Of a DNA stretch of 54,500 nt, positions 10,774-17,151 are shown in pieces (position 1 is the first letter of the stretch; each line of letters starts with the position of its first letter). The notes below the pieces were generated by a model. The model was not told the origin of the DNA and ran no database searches. It worked only from the letters and a program-made list of their open reading frames with translations. This DNA is from Ectobacillus funiculus (GTDB taxonomy: Bacteria > Bacillota > Bacilli > Bacillales > Bacillaceae_G), in contig NZ_SCFM01000034.1 of the NCBI RefSeq assembly GCF_004138295.1, forward strand, positions 1 through 54,500. The letters run 5' to 3'. The translations under genes were made by a program, and so were the position numbers.

Positions 10774-12843
10774 ATGGTAAAAAGCCTATGGCAAGCAGAG
10801 CAAGCAGCACAATTGCAGCAAGGGGTAGAAGAATTAGCATACCGCTCCAATTTAATTGGAACAGATCGTTCTGTATGTAACTGGGGTGGCGGCAATACAT
10901 CAATGAAAACAATCGAGAAGGACTTCCGCGGCCGCGATGTAGAAGTAATGTGGGTAAAAGGAAGCGGTTCCGATTTAGGAACAATGAAAGTTCAACATTT
11001 CACTGGCCTGCGTATGGAAGATATTCGTCCACTGATCGAGCGTGACGAAATGCCGGATGAGGAAATGGTGGCATACTTGGCAAACTGTATGATTGACAGC
11101 AAGCATCCACGCGCATCCATCGAAACATTATTGCATGCATTCCTGCCATTCAAGCATGTAGACCATACGCATCCAGATGCAATCATCGGCCTTTGCTGCG
11201 CAGATAACGGCAGACAGCTGGCGGAAGAAATTTACGGCAATCGATTCGTTTGGGTACCATATATTCGCCCTGGCTTCACATTATCCAAAATGATTGCGGA
11301 AGGTGTAAAAAACAATCCGAACGCTGAGCTTGTATTAATGGAAAAGCACGGTCTTGTTACGTGGGGTGAAACGTCCGAAGAGGCCTATGCAAAAACAATC
11401 GCAATTATTAATGAAGCTGAAGCATATATCAACGATCGCATTGAAGAAGAGAAAGTATTTGGCGGTCAAAAATACGGAGCACTTGCTGCTGAAGAGCGTA
11501 GAAACATCTTGGCACAAGTTATGCCTGTTATCCGCGGTGCGGTAAGCGACGAAAAGAAAATGATTTTATCTTATGACGATGCAGAAGATGTACTTCAATT
11601 TGTAAACAGCCACAATGCACCTGAGCTTTCCCAAGTTGGAGCAGCTTGCCCTGACCATCTTGTGCATACAAAACGTACACCATTGTACATTGACTGGAAC
11701 CCACAAACTGAAGATGTAAACAGCCTAATTGAAAAAGTGAAGGCTGGCGTTGCAAGCTTTAAAGAAGAGTATGCAGCATATTTTGAACGCAATAAACACG
11801 AAGGCGACAAAATGTTTGAAGCAGCTCCGCGTGTTATCCTAATCCCTGGTATCGGTATGGTGAACACAGGCAAAAATTTAGCAATGTCACATGTAAGCGG
11901 AGCCCTGTATCACCGTGCAATTGCAGTTATGAAGGGCTCTACAGCATTAGGTGAATTTGTATCCTTAAACGAAAATGAATCCTACAACGTAGAATACTGG
12001 CCATTAGAGCTTTACAAATTAACACTTGCTCCAGCTGAGGCTGAATTCTCTCGTAAGATTGCCTTTATTACAGGCGGTGCAGGCGGAATCGGCAGCGCAA
12101 CAGCACGTCGTTTTGTATCCGAAGGTGCGCATGTTGTATTAGCTGACTTGAATCTTGAAGGCGCACAAAAGGTTGCGGCTGAAATCAATGAAAAGTATGG
12201 TGAAGGCCGTGCGATTGGCGTGAAAATGGACGTGACAAGCGAAGAGCAAGTACAAGCAGCATTCGCAGAAGCAGCTCTAGCATACGGCGGTGTAGATATT
12301 ATCGTCAATAACGCAGGTCTTGCAACATCCAGCCCATTCGATGAAACATCTCTTAAAGAATGGAACTTGAATATGAACGTGCTTGGAACAGGCTATTTCT
12401 TAGTAGCACGTGAAGCATTCAAGCAAATGAAAGTGCAAGGTGTTGGCGGAAGCATGGTATTCGTTGGATCTAAAAACTCTGTGTATGCCGGCAAAAACGC
12501 AGCAGCATACAGTTCTGTGAAAGCACTTGAAACACATTTGGCACGTTGTATTGCAGCAGAAGGCGGAGAATATGGCATTCGCGTAAACTCTGTATTGCCT
12601 GATGCAGTATTACAAGGTTCAGCAATTTGGGGATCAAACTGGCGTAACGAACGTGCCGCAGCATACGGCATTGAGCCTGATCAATTAGAAGAGCATTACC
12701 GTAAACGTACAACATTGCTTGTTAATATCTACCCATCGGATATTGCGGAATCTATCGCATTCTTCGCATCCTCCAAGGCAGAGAAAACAACAGGCTGCAT
12801 GATTACAGTTGACGGCGGTGTACCAGCAGCATTTACTCGATAA
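10774..12843 (+). CDS. rhaEW: Bifunctional rhamnulose-1-phosphate aldolase / L-lactaldehyde dehydrogenase
   Basis: 689 residues. Residues 1-420 are a class II aldolase/adducin-type domain (TDRSVCNWGGGNTSMK, metal-binding HVDHTHPDAIIGL and EKHGLVTWGE). Residues 430-689 are a short-chain dehydrogenase (AFITGGAGGIGSATARRFV nucleotide loop, NNAGLA, catalytic Tyr-Lys in YSSVK, DGGVP end). This matches B. subtilis RhaEW (YuxG): cleavage to DHAP and L-lactaldehyde, then NAD-linked oxidation of lactaldehyde, in the cytosol. ATG follows AAAGGTGG. Two operator-like boxes lie in the promoter. It is separated from rhaB/rhaA by the yidC2 and araC-type genes and is transcribed alone, ending at a terminator. 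Confidence 0.93.
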   Translation: MVKSLWQAEQAAQLQQGVEELAYRSNLIGTDRSVCNWGGGNTSMKTIEKDFRGRDVEVMWVKGSGSDLGTMKVQHFTGLRMEDIRPLIERDEMPDEEMVAYLANCMIDSKHPRASIETLLHAFLPFKHVDHTHPDAIIGLCCADNGRQLAEEIYGNRFVWVPYIRPGFTLSKMIAEGVKNNPNAELVLMEKHGLVTWGETSEEAYAKTIAIINEAEAYINDRIEEEKVFGGQKYGALAAEERRNILAQVMPVIRGAVSDEKKMILSYDDAEDVLQFVNSHNAPELSQVGAACPDHLVHTKRTPLYIDWNPQTEDVNSLIEKVKAGVASFKEEYAAYFERNKHEGDKMFEAAPRVILIPGIGMVNTGKNLAMSHVSGALYHRAIAVMKGSTALGEFVSLNENESYNVEYWPLELYKLTLAPAEAEFSRKIAFITGGAGGIGSATARRFVSEGAHVVLADLNLEGAQKVAAEINEKYGEGRAIGVKMDVTSEEQVQAAFAEAALAYGGVDIIVNNAGLATSSPFDETSLKEWNLNMNVLGTGYFLVAREAFKQMKVQGVGGSMVFVGSKNSVYAGKNAAAYSSVKALETHLARCIAAEGGEYGIRVNSVLPDAVLQGSAIWGSNWRNERAAAYGIEPDQLEEHYRKRTTLLVNIYPSDIAESIAFFASSKAEKTTGCMITVDGGVPAAFTR

Positions 12844-12886
12844 GAAGCTGTAATAGTGTTTATTTGCCCCCTATAAATAAAGAAGC

Positions 12887-12925
12887 AAAAAGGACGAATC
12901 CGAAACCATGGATTCGTCCTTTTTC
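12887..12925 (+). terminator. rhaEW terminator
   Basis: Fourteen-base-pair stem AAAAGGACGAATCC / GGATTCGTCCTTTT followed by T residues. Confidence 0.9.
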
Positions 12926-12928
12926 TAG

Positions 12929-13063
12929 CCTTTTAAGAGAGTATAAATTTCCAGCTAGAAGCTAATTCAACGTAGCAGGAAATTTTAGAAACAGAGTGTA
13001 AGTACCACTACGTTTCTGTCTTTGCCCGGGGGCAGGGCCCGCCCATCAGCACGTTTTCTTTAG
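12929..13063 (+). repeat. Repeat family A, full copy, diverged
   Basis: CCTTTTAAGAGAGTATAAAT start, TTTCCAGCTAGAAG, AATTCAACGTAGCAGGAAAT, TTTCTGTCTTTGCCC, and an ACGTTTTCTTTAG end. The terminal hairpin is partly mismatched. Confidence 0.82.
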
Positions 13064-13088
13064 TAATGAATTCCATGGATCCCTTATC

Positions 13089-13118
13089 AAGTAATTCAAT
13101 GTTATCATTGAATTACTT
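13089..13118. other. Perfect 13-bp hairpin without a T run
   Basis: AAGTAATTCAATG (13089-13101), TTAT loop, CATTGAATTACTT (13106-13118). No poly-T follows, so it may be an operator or RNA structure rather than a terminator. The remaining 13120-13350 stretch shows nothing recognisable. Confidence 0.4.
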
Positions 13119-13356
13119 CACCTACGCCCTTCACAAAATTGAAGTAGGGTACTATTCTAGCAAAGTCTGATAGAAAAATGCTTATAGGTTGTATAATATC
13201 AAAATTGGTCATATGGATATGAAGGGGATGTTATTAGCTATAACGAATACAAAGCATAATGAACGAGGATCACGGATTTCTGTATCTGCTGTATTCAATT
13301 GCCACAGCATTGTTGCAGCTCATTTTTCTATTCAAAAGGTTGTTTTTCTTTCTTTG

Positions 13357-13365
13357 TGTTATAAT
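13357..13365 (+). promoter_or_regulatory. Extended -10 promoter of the small ORF-yidC2 unit
   Basis: TG-T-TATAAT is a perfect extended -10. No well-placed -35 is seen (TTGTTT at 13340 leaves only 14 bp). The start point would be near 13372, shortly before the ribosome site of the 94-codon ORF. Confidence 0.45.
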
Positions 13366-13387
13366 GGGGTTAGAAGGATGTGAAACT

Positions 13388-13672
13388 GTGGAATTTTTTA
13401 TACCGGATGGCTCTATGTATATAGCATTTGTCTTGCTGACAACGTTTTTTCTATGTATGGCATCACAATTTGCTGCAACTCAGACTGTACATAAGCAAGC
13501 CGCCCTTCGACAAGGAAGCTTGTGTATTGTACAACAGACTGATGTTTGCTCTAACTGTAACCTTGTGCCGTCTATTTATTTTAAATATAAAATGACTTGC
13601 TCTGTCCACAGACAAGAATCTGCCGGAGAGCAAGACGATGAAGGTCCGTATCTCTCAATGTTTTTCGCATAA
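13388..13672 (+). CDS. 94-residue membrane peptide, candidate MifM-like sensor of YidC activity
   Basis: GTG 13388 follows AGAAGGATG. Residues 9-30 are a membrane helix (SMYIAFVLLTTFFLCMASQF). The middle is cysteine-containing (DVCSNCN, KMTC). The end is acidic (GEQDDEGPYLSMFFA), with D83-D84-E85. YidC2 starts 24 nt after its stop. The last codons (13651-13666) pair with 13675-13691, covering the yidC2 Shine-Dalgarno GGAGGG. In B. subtilis, MifM has about 95 residues and one N-terminal membrane segment. It stalls at a C-terminal acidic stretch, opening a hairpin that hides the yidC2 ribosome site. I see no clear sequence identity with MifM, so the role is inferred from architecture. A frame extending back to ATG 13259 exists but lacks a ribosome site. 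Confidence 0.65.
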   Translation: MEFFIPDGSMYIAFVLLTTFFLCMASQFAATQTVHKQAALRQGSLCIVQQTDVCSNCNLVPSIYFKYKMTCSVHRQESAGEQDDEGPYLSMFFA

Positions 13673-13691
13673 CAGAAAAACATTGGAGGGA
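13651..13691 (+). promoter_or_regulatory. Hairpin sequestering the yidC2 Shine-Dalgarno
   Basis: 5' arm TCTCTCAATGTTTTTC (13651-13666) lies in the last codons of the small ORF. 3' arm GAAAAACATTGGAGGGA (13675-13691) contains the yidC2 ribosome site. The stem has 16 pairs, one of them G-U, with a single bulged G at 13686. A ribosome halted around D83-E85 (13634-13642) would have its leading edge at about 13655, opening the base of the stem and freeing GGAGGG. No T run follows, so it is not a terminator. Confidence 0.7.
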
Positions 13692-13696
13692 CATAT

Positions 13697-14455
13697 ATGT
13701 CAAAACTCATAAAACTTTTATCGATAACATTGTTATTTATAGGTATACTTGCGGGATGCAGCGCAGCCGCATCTTCTTCCGGGCCAAACACGGACTTGTG
13801 GCACCATTATTTTATTTATCCGATGTCTTTGCTTATTGTTCATGTTGCGAAGGCGTGGATATTTCAAAGCTTTGGCTTTGCCATTATGATTGTAACGGTT
13901 GGTGTGCGGATGCTTCTCATGCCTCTCAATGTTATGCAATATAAGAATCAGTTGAACATGAAACGGCTTCAGCCGCAGCTCAAGGAGCTGAAAAAAAAGT
14001 ACTCATCTAAGCATGCGGAGGAACAAAAGCAATATCAGGTGGAAATGATGAAGCTCATGCAAGAGAATAAGGCCAATCCAATGATGGGATGTCTTCCTCT
14101 TATCGTGCAGCTCCCAGTTTTCTCAGCTGTGTATTATGCTATTCGACAGACGAAGGAGATTAGCAGTGCTTCCTTTTTATGGCTAAACCTTGGACATCCT
14201 GATCCGTACTATGTGCTTCCGCTTCTTGCGGCATGTATGACGTATATACAAGCAAGGGTCGTTCAGACGAATGTCCCAGCAGAACAGATGGCGCAGGTTA
14301 GAATGATGCAATTGATGTCACCGGTCATGGTTCTTATGTTTGGATTCGCTTCACCATCGGGACTTGTGCTCTATTGGCTGACAGGTAGTATTTTTATGAT
14401 TGCACAATATACGGTTTTGAAAAAGCTGTACCGAAACGAGACAGCTTCAGCATAA
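13697..14455 (+). CDS. yidC2: Membrane protein insertase YidC/OxaA family (YidC2 type)
   Basis: 252 residues. Lipoprotein signal with lipobox LAGC (residues 18-21), then the Oxa1/YidC/Alb3 core: first core helix FGFAIMIVTVGVRMLLMPL with the conserved hydrophilic-groove Arg, charged coiled hairpin (RLQPQLKELKKKYSS...), MGCLPLIVQLPVFSAVYYAI, and the final helices with GLVLYWLTGSIFMIAQY. It inserts and folds membrane proteins and can cooperate with Sec. B. subtilis has two copies (SpoIIIJ and YqjG/YidC2); the second is induced when the first fails. Its ribosome site GGAGGG is buried in a hairpin shared with the preceding ORF, which argues this is the regulated copy. Confidence 0.92.
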   Translation: MSKLIKLLSITLLFIGILAGCSAAASSSGPNTDLWHHYFIYPMSLLIVHVAKAWIFQSFGFAIMIVTVGVRMLLMPLNVMQYKNQLNMKRLQPQLKELKKKYSSKHAEEQKQYQVEMMKLMQENKANPMMGCLPLIVQLPVFSAVYYAIRQTKEISSASFLWLNLGHPDPYYVLPLLAACMTYIQARVVQTNVPAEQMAQVRMMQLMSPVMVLMFGFASPSGLVLYWLTGSIFMIAQYTVLKKLYRNETASA

Positions 14456-14460
14456 GAGTG

Positions 14461-14495
14461 AAGAGAGCATTCTGTTAGAGCAGAATGCTCTCTTA
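14461..14495. terminator. yidC2 terminator
   Basis: Fourteen-base-pair stem AAGAGAGCATTCTG / CAGAATGCTCTCTT with a TTAGAG loop. Confidence 0.85.
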
Positions 14496-14521
14496 TCTAT
14501 AATAGATTAGGGGGAATTTGG

Positions 14522-15490
14522 ATGTCCTTCGATTTACTGCAGGAGTTAATGGAATTAACAGAGGAGGAACAAGCCATCCTCCAGCAAAAACAAGAAGTGC
14601 GAAGAGAGCTTTACACAAGTCAGACCAATTTTATTATTGAAGGCGATAAGTTTCTCACTAAAGAAAAAATGATTATGGTTCGAAAGCATACACGCTTTGT
14701 TGACTTCCCAAAGCATAAGCATGATTATATTGAAATGAATTATGTATATAACGGAACGCTAAAGCAAAAGGTAGGCGGTACATCAATTACTTTAAAGCGA
14801 GGCGAATTCCTTATTTTGAACCAGCATATAGAACACGAGATTGAGGCTTGTGCAAAAGAGGACATTGTTATCAATTTCATTATACGCGCGGAATTTTTTG
14901 ATTTTATTTTCTCTTACTTAACATCCGAAAATATTGTAAGCGATTTTTTAATTAACAGCTTATATAACAATACGCAAAATGGGCAATTTATGTATTTTAA
15001 AGTGGCAGAGGTTAGTGAAATTCAAGAGATGCTTGAAAAAATAATTAGGGAAATTATGAATCCCTCCTTATTATCGGAATCCACAATTAAGCTATATATG
15101 GGGCTTTTCATGATTGAATTGATTAAGCACGCTGATAAGGTAGAGCAGAAGAAAGAGTCTTCTCTCCAGCACTTTTTAGTTGTTGAATCGTTAAAATATA
15201 TTGATCAGCACTTTCCTAATGCATCTCTATATGAATTAGCAGAAAAGCTGAATCAATCTCATTATGGTCTCAGCAAGCATATTAAGAAGGCTACAAATTA
15301 TACATTTAAAGAGCTGCTGCAGGAGAAGCGCTTGAGTAAAGCAAAGGAATTATTAGAAAGCACCGATCTGCCTATTTCCTCAGTGATTGAGCAAGTAGGT
15401 TATGATAATATTAGTTATTTTTATCGTATTTTTAAGAGCAAATATGGCCGAACACCAAAGGAATGGCGAGATTGTGAAGTAAGGGAGTAG
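14522..15490 (+). CDS. AraC-family transcriptional regulator with cupin sensor domain
   Basis: 322 residues. Cupin-type ligand domain around 55-130 (FPKHKHDYIEMNYVYNG ... LILNQHIEHEI), then a helical linker and a C-terminal AraC double HTH (LYELAEKLNQSHYGLSKHIK, LSKAKELLESTDLPISSVIEQVGYDNISYFYRIFK, GRTPKEWR). Placed directly before rhaB in the same direction with a 242-nt gap. This suggests a rhamnose-responsive activator like RhaS/RhaR of enterics, although the match is only to the general class. Ribosome site AGGGGGAA before the ATG. The B. subtilis rha locus relies on a DeoR repressor, so a second regulator here is notable. Confidence 0.82.
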   Translation: MSFDLLQELMELTEEEQAILQQKQEVRRELYTSQTNFIIEGDKFLTKEKMIMVRKHTRFVDFPKHKHDYIEMNYVYNGTLKQKVGGTSITLKRGEFLILNQHIEHEIEACAKEDIVINFIIRAEFFDFIFSYLTSENIVSDFLINSLYNNTQNGQFMYFKVAEVSEIQEMLEKIIREIMNPSLLSESTIKLYMGLFMIELIKHADKVEQKKESSLQHFLVVESLKYIDQHFPNASLYELAEKLNQSHYGLSKHIKKATNYTFKELLQEKRLSKAKELLESTDLPISSVIEQVGYDNISYFYRIFKSKYGRTPKEWRDCEVRE

Positions 15491-15692
15491 TTTTCTTTTT
15501 GAAAGCTGCTCCCTTATTTTTGGGAGGCAAATATATAGCTTTCTAATTTCACAAAAAAAGGAATATAACAGCTTTGTTTGTGATGATTTCTTTCCGAGTT
15601 TACAGGCTAAATTAATAATAATTTATGTGCAAATAAGGACAATAAAAAGGCTACTCACGTTATTATTTTTTTTCCTTATTTCCTTTATCCTA
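15491..15692 (+). other. Intergenic region before rhaB
   Basis: Very AT-rich, without a gene. It holds the probable rhaB promoter near the pyrimidine-rich stretch 15665-15690 (TATAAA around 15691 as a weak -10). No clear terminator for the araC-type gene is visible, so read-through into rhaB is possible. Confidence 0.4.
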
Positions 15693-15714
15693 TAAACATA
15701 AGCAAACGCTTTCA
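15693..15714 (+). promoter_or_regulatory. Overlapping RhaR-type box and cre site before rhaB
   Basis: TAAACATAAGCAAA (15693-15706) matches the rhaEW box in 12 of 14 bases. AGCAAACGCTTTCA (15701-15714) is, on the other strand, TGAAAGCGTTTGCT, a good CcpA cre match. The overlap would let the specific repressor and catabolite repression act at one place. Confidence 0.6.
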
Positions 15715-15732
15715 GTATAGAGGGTGATAAAA

Positions 15733-17151
15733 ATGACAAAACATTGTGTAGCAGTTGATATCGGTGCATCAAGCGGAAGGCTCATCGCGGGTCATATTGA
15801 GAATGGCACCCTGCAACTACAGGAAGTGCATCGTTTTGAAAATAAAATTGTGCAAAAAGGGAATCATTTTTGCTGGGAAGTAGATACGTTATTTGCGGAA
15901 ATTAAAAAGGGAATTCATAAATGCCGCGAGCTCGGTTTACAGCCAGAGAGCATCGGTATTGACACTTGGGCGGTAGATTTTGTGCTGCTGGATGAAGATG
16001 GAAATCCTTTAACGGATGCTGTTTCATATCGCGATCCAAGAACAGACGGGATGATGGAAGAGGTTTTTAATATCATTTCAAAGGAGCGCCTTTACTTAGA
16101 AACAGGGATTCAGTTCCAAAAGTTTAATACCATTTATCAGCTGTATGCCTTGAAGCAAAGCAATCCAGAGATTTTAGAAAAAGCAAAAGCATTCTTGATG
16201 ATTCCAGAGTATTTTAACTATTTATTAACAGGCAAGAAGGCAAATGAGTATACAAACGCGACATCCACGCAGCTTGTAAATGCTTTTACAAAGAAATGGG
16301 ATAAGGAGCTTTTGGGGCAATTGGGCATTAATCCTGATGTGTTTCAAGATATTCAAATGCCAAAGACAATCTTAGGGAATTTGACAGAAGAGCTTGTAGA
16401 GGAATTTGGCTTTGATATGAAGGTTGTCCTGCCGGCAACACACGACACAGGATCAGCAGTTCTATCTGTTCCTTCATTAGAGGATACTATTTACATTAGC
16501 TCTGGTACATGGTCATTAATCGGTGTGGAAAATCCGTTTCCGATTTGTGTGCCTAAGGCGTTAGATTATAACTTCACAAATGAAGGCGGAATGGATTATC
16601 GCTATCGCTTCTTAAAAAATATTATGGGGCTTTGGATGATTCAGGAAGTGAGAAGAAATTATAACAATCAATATTCCTTTGCCGAGCTTGTGCAATTGGC
16701 GCAGGAAGCTGCAGATTTCCGTTCTATTGTGAATGTGGATGATGCAAGGTTTTTGAAGCCAGACAATATGATTAAGGCGATTCAAAACTATTGCCGTGAA
16801 ACAGAGCAGGCGGTGCCAAGCACAGTAGGAGAAGTTGCGAAGTGTGTATTTGACAGTTTAGTGGCCAGCTATGAGAAGGCTATTGGTGAGATTAAAGAAA
16901 TTTTTGAAAAAGAATTTAAAACAATCCATATAATTGGCGGCGGCTGTCAAAATGAATTGTTAAACCAAAAGATTGCTGATGCAACAAATAAGACGGTATA
17001 TGCTGGGCCTGTTGAGGCAACTGCGATTGGGAATCTTGTCGCACAGCTGATGGCATTAGGTGAGATTGACAGCTTGAACGAGGCAAGAGAACTCATTCAA
17101 CAGTCATTTGAAGTAAAAACATTTGAAAAAATAGAGGCTTGTATAAATTAA
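15733..17151 (+). CDS. rhaB: Rhamnulokinase
   Basis: 472 residues. FGGY-family sugar kinase: VAVDIGASSGRLIAGHIENG phosphate loop at the N-terminus, GIDTWAVDFVLLDEDGNPL, SYRDPRTDGM, TATHDTGSAVLSVP-type block (LPATHDTGSAVLSVPSLED), SSGTWSLIGVE and the C-terminal IHIIGGGCQNELLNQ. It phosphorylates L-rhamnulose at O1 with ATP. GAGGGTGA gives ATG 15733 as the start; an in-frame GTG at 15724 is inside the ribosome site. RhaA follows 24 nt later, so rhaBA is an operon. No rhaM mutarotase follows, unlike B. subtilis. Confidence 0.94.
   Translation: MTKHCVAVDIGASSGRLIAGHIENGTLQLQEVHRFENKIVQKGNHFCWEVDTLFAEIKKGIHKCRELGLQPESIGIDTWAVDFVLLDEDGNPLTDAVSYRDPRTDGMMEEVFNIISKERLYLETGIQFQKFNTIYQLYALKQSNPEILEKAKAFLMIPEYFNYLLTGKKANEYTNATSTQLVNAFTKKWDKELLGQLGINPDVFQDIQMPKTILGNLTEELVEEFGFDMKVVLPATHDTGSAVLSVPSLEDTIYISSGTWSLIGVENPFPICVPKALDYNFTNEGGMDYRYRFLKNIMGLWMIQEVRRNYNNQYSFAELVQLAQEAADFRSIVNVDDARFLKPDNMIKAIQNYCRETEQAVPSTVGEVAKCVFDSLVASYEKAIGEIKEIFEKEFKTIHIIGGGCQNELLNQKIADATNKTVYAGPVEATAIGNLVAQLMALGEIDSLNEARELIQQSFEVKTFEKIEACIN

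Follow-up and report, generated by a model that had tools for sequence, protein, structure and literature searches.

MifM is the textbook sensor of YidC activity. In excerpts of two papers on the MifM-yidC2 system of Bacillus subtilis (PMC6037786, PMC4423224), the peptide has 95 residues and an acidic stretch near its C-terminus, and stalls near its end. An excerpt of a third (PMC13183943) names MifM, ApcA and CliM as the three arrest peptides found upstream of yidC and gives CliM (uC_KYxIW), which precedes yidC in Clostridia, as shown to monitor YidC; a class of YidC-monitoring arrest peptides is thus already known. The locus described here lies in a 54,500-nucleotide stretch of DNA (the window, meaning the whole stretch that was analysed), in which a small ORF directly precedes the gene for a YidC-family insertase. 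The best reading of this ORF, which we consider probable, is that of a regulatory nascent chain working like MifM and placed before an insertase of a third lineage. Judged by sequence comparison, it belongs with a few other pairs of a candidate arrest peptide and a third YidC, which stand apart from the classical MifM-YidC2 pairs.

The window locus has in common with MifM-yidC2, as that system appears in the excerpts of PMC6037786 and PMC4423224, one N-terminal membrane segment, an acidic C-terminal stretch and a hairpin hiding the Shine-Dalgarno sequence (SD) of a secondary YidC. It differs in its motif (VHRQExxGEQDDEGP), in having no significant match to B. subtilis MifM, in the placement of its YidC in a third clade, and in that the genomes of its relatives carry a classical pair besides. 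The K-Y-x-I-W motif of CliM is absent, the window ORF reading K-Y-K-M-T at residues 66-70 and the other members KF or KH. With ApcA and the RAPP/RQH peptides (excerpts of PMC10987492 and PMC7897499) the ORF shares a position upstream of a localisation gene and a C-terminal arrest motif, here a candidate one, but it lacks RAPP, RAGP, RAPG or any like motif. The open-access literature searched yielded no description of the motif, of a third YidC clade with its own peptide, or of the MutS arrangement described below; some of these ORFs may be among the 572 MifM sequences of Fujiwara et al. 2024.

The upstream ORF and the hairpin over the insertase Shine-Dalgarno sequence

The features of the locus are as follows.

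13357..13365, + strand: predicted extended -10 promoter element (TGT-TATAAT), just 5' of the ORF (sequence)
13374..13382, + strand: ribosome-binding site of the ORF, AAGGATGTG (sequence)
13388..13672, + strand: arrest-peptide candidate, 94 aa, GTG start (translation and homologues)
13412..13477, + strand: membrane segment at the N-terminus, about residues 9-30 (seen by eye as a hydrophobic run in the translation)
13604..13648, + strand: conserved arrest motif (candidate), residues 73-87, VHRQESAGEQDDEGP (nearly invariant over 8 members)
13651..13666, + strand: 5' arm of the hairpin, the last codons of the ORF (RNAfold, 8-member alignment, RNAalifold)
13675..13689, + strand: 3' arm of the hairpin, overlapping the insertase SD (RNAfold, 8-member alignment, RNAalifold)
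13685..13690, + strand: GGAGGG, SD of the insertase gene, buried in the stem (sequence, RNAfold)
13697..14455, + strand: YidC-family insertase of a third lineage, with lipoprotein-type N-terminus and conserved TM1 arginine (Pfam 60KD_IMP, E 4.7e-47; tree)

The translation of 13388-13672 is VEFFIPDGSMYIAFVLLTTFFLCMASQFAATQTVHKQAALRQGSLCIVQQTDVCSNCNLVPSIYFKYKMTCSVHRQESAGEQDDEGPYLSMFFA. The sequence-only reading had described a 94-codon ORF starting at GTG 13388, with a single N-terminal hydrophobic stretch and the acidic residues D83-D84-E85, whose stop lies 24 nt 5' of the ATG (13697) of the YidC gene, and sequence and translation bear this out in every part. The ORF adjoins the yidC gene on the same strand and directly ahead of it, the placement expected of a YidC-monitoring arrest peptide. 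The segment taken by eye as membrane-spanning (about residues 9-30) is preceded by acidic and followed by basic residues, so that by the positive-inside rule its orientation is probably N-out/C-in. More than 30 residues separate it from the motif at 73-87, the spacing that PMC10987492 asks for between membrane segment and arrest site. E81, D83, D84 and E85 form a patch of negative charge within residues 70-100, in agreement with the MifM rule for yidC uORFs of Firmicutes in the excerpt of that paper, which applies the 70-100 charge rule after clustering where we used it directly. The ORF has no match in Pfam or NCBIfam at E up to 1, none in PADLOC and, used alone, none in a sequence search of the PDB; five Rfam matches over 12800-14600 all fall below the gathering score.

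Relatives were sought with the ORF as query in 397 genomes of the order (Gnnn and Lnnn denote genomes and loci). Full-length relatives occur in 6 of the 396 other genomes (36-47% identity, E 2.8e-25 to 5.5e-16), and a seventh, G180, keeps a remnant of 41 codons (E 3.0e-5); among the matches listed, the remaining ones begin at E 0.002, many of them with internal stops. A seventh intact homologue lies on the Priestia aryabhattai plasmid pG5MAi6_1, giving eight members with the window, a small clade in which some rows are near-copies. All seven homologues begin M-E-[LF]-[LF]-x-P-D at the position of the window GTG, which supports that start. Among the six homologues compared, the ribosome-binding site reads AAGGATGTG or AAGGACGTG in five and AAGTATGTG in L199, and a TATGnTAnnAT stretch occupies the place of the predicted promoter element in all six. 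The element, which would leave the ORF a leader of only about 15 nt, is not listed by the consensus scanner, which demands a -35 hexamer.

Conservation in a relative's C-terminus had been proposed as a check on the sequence-only reading, and across the seven other members the C-terminus is indeed the most conserved part of the ORF. It is nearly fixed over the eight members as [ST]V[HQY]R[QK]E[AS]xGE[QH]DDEGP, with V73, R75, E77, G80, E81, D83, D84, E85, G86 and P87 invariant over seven aligned members. In the six pairings of four divergent members, residues 70-87 are identical at 77 of 108 positions, compared with 76 of 186 in the TM region and 75 of 219 in the linker, and 42 of these 77 identical positions are encoded by different codons. 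The dN of residues 70-87 (0.13-0.22) is likewise below that of the TM region (0.31-0.65) and the linker (0.32-0.82), the dS of residues 70-87 being above 2 or not computable. Identical residues specified by different codons, together with the low dN, show selection on the amino-acid sequence. Over residues 88-92, the tail, only 1 of 13 identical positions uses a different codon, a small number but as expected if the RNA is constrained there.

The hairpin that had been placed over GGAGGG is real, although its extent is 15 bp with a one-base bulge ending at 13689 (RNAfold) and not 16 bp reaching 13691. The region 13620-13730 folds at -29.7 kcal/mol against -16.8 +/- 3.1 kcal/mol in shuffles (z -4.2, 0 of 200 as stable). 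Covarying positions had also been suggested as a check, and in the alignment of eight members (13 pairs counted) the SD-burying stem is kept by compensatory changes. Paired cells number 102 of 103 (99.0%, against 90.9% in shuffles; 0 of 500 as high), both sides have changed at 5 of the 13 pairs (3 of 500 shuffles reach that count), and changes on both sides occur in 9 cells (0 of 500 shuffles), which with near-copy rows within one genus represent fewer events, at least one per changed pair. The covariation score is 0.376 against 0.204 +/- 0.029 (0 of 500 shuffles) and at most 0.124 for slid versions; the count of further pair types (8, shuffled 8.7, 449 of 500 as high) is the sole one of the five measures without an excess. 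RNAalifold independently recovers the same stem, and the pairing is kept even though the 5' arm encodes a peptide tail that varies. A chance origin of the hairpin is rejected on the z of -4.2 and the covariation, and a terminator on the lack of a U-run after the stem.

The effect of a parked ribosome was calculated on the assumption that its leading edge lies 16 nt beyond the P-site codon's first base. Freeing the window SD-to-ATG stretch is calculated to cost 12.8 kcal/mol in the free mRNA and 4.0 kcal/mol with the P-site at G86. The corresponding costs fall from 15.1 to 5.5 kcal/mol in L200 (calculated with an ATG four bases 5' of the gene's start), from 13.4 to 1.3 in L201, from 10.9 to 1.4 in L202 and from 13.5 to 4.2 in L285. 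In L197, L198 and L199 opening the free mRNA takes only 3.1, 6.4 and 3.4 kcal/mol, so that the lock is predicted to be weak; these costs are lower than those with a ribosome parked at D83 or D84, and the SD is only partly hidden in the free mRNA (unpaired 0.39-0.41). With a parked ribosome the probability that the SD is unpaired, averaged over its bases, starts at 0.12 in the window and reaches no more than 0.46, a rise limited by other predicted pairings, and in L285 it goes from 0.13 to 0.56 at one ribosome position only. This less clear response argues against a clean on/off reading from folding alone.

The downstream insertase and the distribution of the pair

The groove of YidC contains an arginine contributed by TM1, and sequence comparison finds it kept. 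In a maximum-likelihood tree of 65 YidCs from a chosen subset of loci (midpoint root, for drawing only), the window protein groups with those of G205, G252, G273, G332 and the plasmid with 100/100 support. This clade falls outside the SpoIIIJ group and outside the classical (MifM-preceded) rows, which themselves do not all form one clade (22 rows, 3 changes). Four clade YidCs compared are 50-81% identical to each other and 30-40% identical to eight others. Control of a YidC2 orthologue, a mark of the MifM family proper, is therefore not what we find, the clade standing apart at 100/100, and the name yidC2 first given to the downstream gene should be dropped. By its place in the tree the insertase is a third YidC lineage and not a YidC2 orthologue.

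The window genome has two YidCs only, a SpoIIIJ type behind rnpA and the third type. An intact YidC of the one clade adjoins the ORF in six of the eight members (window, L198, L199, L201, L202, L285); the gene is truncated in L197 and replaced by another in L200, so the coupling of ORF and insertase is not absolute. A classical MifM-type yidC pair is also present in all seven other genomes with an ORF of this type (among them G180, whose ORF is the remnant), a count drawn from the 397 genomes searched. These classical pairs are as follows.

G252, G205, G180, G351: classical pair (YRKTPVKEKNNDEEDPFLL)
G332, G273: classical pair (IKKPVKERSKSNGDEEDPFLL)
G182: classical pair (IRRKRCSQDDSEDP)

G252 and G205 have three YidCs each, two of them behind arrest-peptide candidates, so that one cell can hold two candidate arrest-peptide and insertase pairs with different arrest sequences. 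G332 and G273 have two YidCs each by Pfam, neither linked to rnpA and both behind arrest-peptide candidates. In these two genomes the distance from rnpA to jag (identified by likeness and position) is 386-389 nt, and the gap contains no match to SpoIIIJ (best tblastn E 0.61, nine residues).

L287 1094-1483 (G273): rnpA-jag gap without spoIIIJ
L288 1842-2228 (G332): rnpA-jag gap without spoIIIJ

Both genomes thus seem to be without SpoIIIJ in its usual place, which leaves them only YidCs that stand behind arrest-peptide candidates. Such genomes open to experiment the questions why a cell retains a second sensor, whether the two sense different things, and how arrest peptides exchange their motif yet keep their job. 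Such work could be done in a tractable host, since close kin of Priestia megaterium carry the module: three of the six relatives and the remnant are Priestia, with rnpA-spoIIIJ DNA 98.0-99.3% identical to a P. megaterium record.

The ORF occurs in 6 of 16 genomes of family f44 (remnant included) and 1 of 151 of family f47. In the class-wide sample it was found in 1 of 398 genomes, that of the window, with 12 candidates scored per genome among the matches listed. Three other genomes of the window genus gave no ORF match at E 0.001. One of these, G002, has a uORF of classical-like form ahead of its second YidC; in a genome of this genus the branch of the second YidC (L009, G003:C1:2175595) is very long (2.37 changes per column), and no uORF was seen before the gene. 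Phage records gave no ORF match at E 0.01, and none of 276 pattern matches in IMG/VR was confirmed.

Likeness to MifM, possible mobility and decay

YidC was found in all 150 sampled genomes of the order, at least one in each and in most of them with two matches. Neighbourhoods were taken from part of these matches (29 new loci, L108-L136) and from 60 loci chosen by place, at least 30 of which are linked to rnpA. Where the upstream gene is neither rnpA nor yidD, it is usually an ORF of 85-123 aa that has a hydrophobic stretch near its N-terminus and an acidic patch near its C-terminus. We call classical those uORFs that fit the MifM rule as given in the excerpt of PMC10987492, a set of 39 that includes L008, L138 and L143 and excludes L040 (a YidC fragment). 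An SD could be placed in 36 of the 39 loci and is predicted to pair with the 3' end of the ORF above 0.5 in 35 of the 36, with a mean of 0.89 (shuffled 0.40), the exception being L138 (0.11); in 24 of the 36 the pairing beats 95% of 60 shuffles. Near-copies occur among the rows. No SD was placed by this rule in L107, L171 and L175 (G018, G046, G041), where the frame extends some 25-40 residues past the acidic patch to give ORFs of 121-123 aa and codons in the extension, such as those for RGG or RRGG, may contain the yidC SD. No such uORF was seen before L131, L135, L149, L155 and L173; the YidCs of L131 and L135 fall in the SpoIIIJ group of the tree.

The alternative that survives best concerns origin. 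The ORF may be a diverged member of the MifM family proper, sharing an ancestor with B. subtilis MifM, and we lean slightly to this over a separate invention. The two share their gene order and length, a membrane stretch, the position of the acidic patch and the hairpin, and profiles reach a borderline likeness. The profile of the 39 classical uORFs matches the window ORF at E 0.044 in a set of 2593 sequences, fourth among the matches listed, where the only other of the 592 window frames is the longer frame containing the ORF. The profile of 42 classical uORFs gives E 0.0076 for the window ORF and 0.0018 for the G182 member (for 1000 sequences), hhalign reaches a probability of 45% across the final 20 residues, and the G182 member reads YRKESKGEQDDEGP, near FRKESPDDKEG of L137. 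None of 1000 fully shuffled copies of the window ORF scored above the real one, but 3 of 1000 did when residues 31-94 alone were shuffled, which weakens the case for descent. Further against it, the clade profile does not find B. subtilis MifM in the PDB at E up to 10 (one chance-level match), the classical profile finds it at no better than E 0.61, ranked below an unrelated chain (E 0.42), and the YidCs group apart from other MifM-preceded YidCs, though in a tree with an arbitrary root. The earlier statement that the ORF has no obvious residue similarity with MifM is near right, then, but misses a weak likeness that lies chiefly in the last 20 or so residues. The ORF belongs to a small family of its own, for which descent from MifM is plausible.

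The surroundings of the pair vary. In the window it has on one side a 689-aa ORF (10774-12843) and on the other two ORFs, of 322 and 475 aa (14522-15490, 15724-17151), the latter two of which we take to be rhamnose-use genes (regulator-like and kinase-like), and across 10774-17151 it is placed as if inserted in a sugar-use cluster. In G205 and G252 its neighbour is an ABC transporter; elsewhere it is on a plasmid, pG5MAi6_1, where a group II intron reverse transcriptase and an IS21 element are found close to the member and an annotated yidC follows it. Two copies are decaying.

L197 1380-1782 (G351): ORF and hairpin whole, yidC match stopping after about 24 codons
L203 1345-1640 (G180): first 41 codons of the ORF left, start codon changed

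The patchy occurrence, the plasmid copy, the remnants and the differing contexts suggest that the module has been transferred between genomes. In one genome the ORF stands before an unrelated gene.

L226 11038-12971 (G182:C5): ORF of window type and SD hairpin before a gene for a MutS_V-domain ATPase

Here a gap of 26 nt separates ORF and hairpin from the gene that stands in place of yidC, which encodes a 539-aa protein containing MutS domain V. Directly 5' of ORF and hairpin lie genes with TnsA, Mu-transposase-C (in the tnsB place) and TnsD/TniQ domains, as in a Tn7-like transposon, with an ORF in the tnsC place assigned by position. In PADLOC the MutS-like protein has weak matches only, mostly to ATPase parts (E 0.00013 and up). 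Four others of the 397 genomes (G031, G321, G383, G112) have matches over much of it, and no ORF of the window type was seen upstream of these, with forward frames covered in G031 and a contig that ends soon upstream in G112. Compared by eye, the 539-aa protein and its relatives start at the same point, and the switch therefore seems to have been joined at the MutS-like gene's own start. As the arrangement is seen in one genome, it may be an assembly error or a chance junction.

Tentatively, and as the less probable account of origin, the clade could be a further family of YidC-monitoring arrest peptides that does not derive from MifM, is mobile with the third insertase and can be placed before other genes such as that for the MutS ATPase of G182, because peptide and hairpin make up a self-contained switch. 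If this were true, non-insertase genes would come under the control of membrane-insertion stress.

Proposed regulation of the insertase

Whatever its origin, the ORF is read here as a MifM-like regulatory nascent chain, for which we infer arrest, release by insertion and induction of the insertase. The N-terminal membrane segment of the ORF would be an insertase substrate. When insertion succeeds, the chain would be pulled, translation would run through, and the hairpin (13651-13689) would re-form and hide the insertase SD. When insertion fails, the chain would stall its own ribosome around D83-P87 by means of VHRQExxGEQDDEGP, and the parked ribosome would cover the 5' arm, freeing the SD so that the spare insertase is made.

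Plain translational coupling, in which any ribosome translating as far as the ORF stop would open the hairpin and so start translation of the insertase gene with no regulated arrest, is unlikely. It draws on the position of the stop codon (13670-13672) in the hairpin loop, by which a terminating ribosome also covers the 5' arm, but it offers no reason for near-invariant residues 73-87 beside a drifting linker, nor for a kept membrane segment. That the product instead acts in trans as a small membrane protein, for example an insertase partner, with a hairpin that merely tunes the ratio, is very improbable: although the ORF is conserved as a protein and is intact in G351, where the yidC match ends after about 24 codons, its conservation peaks in the C-terminal tail adjoining the hairpin, the G182 ORF with the same hairpin precedes an unrelated gene, and the layout recurs before other second YidCs. 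In G205 a small ORF with hydrophobic stretches (L228 7129-7437), for which no counterpart was seen in the window, shares 14 bases with the end of the third yidC, and the operon there may include it as a third gene.
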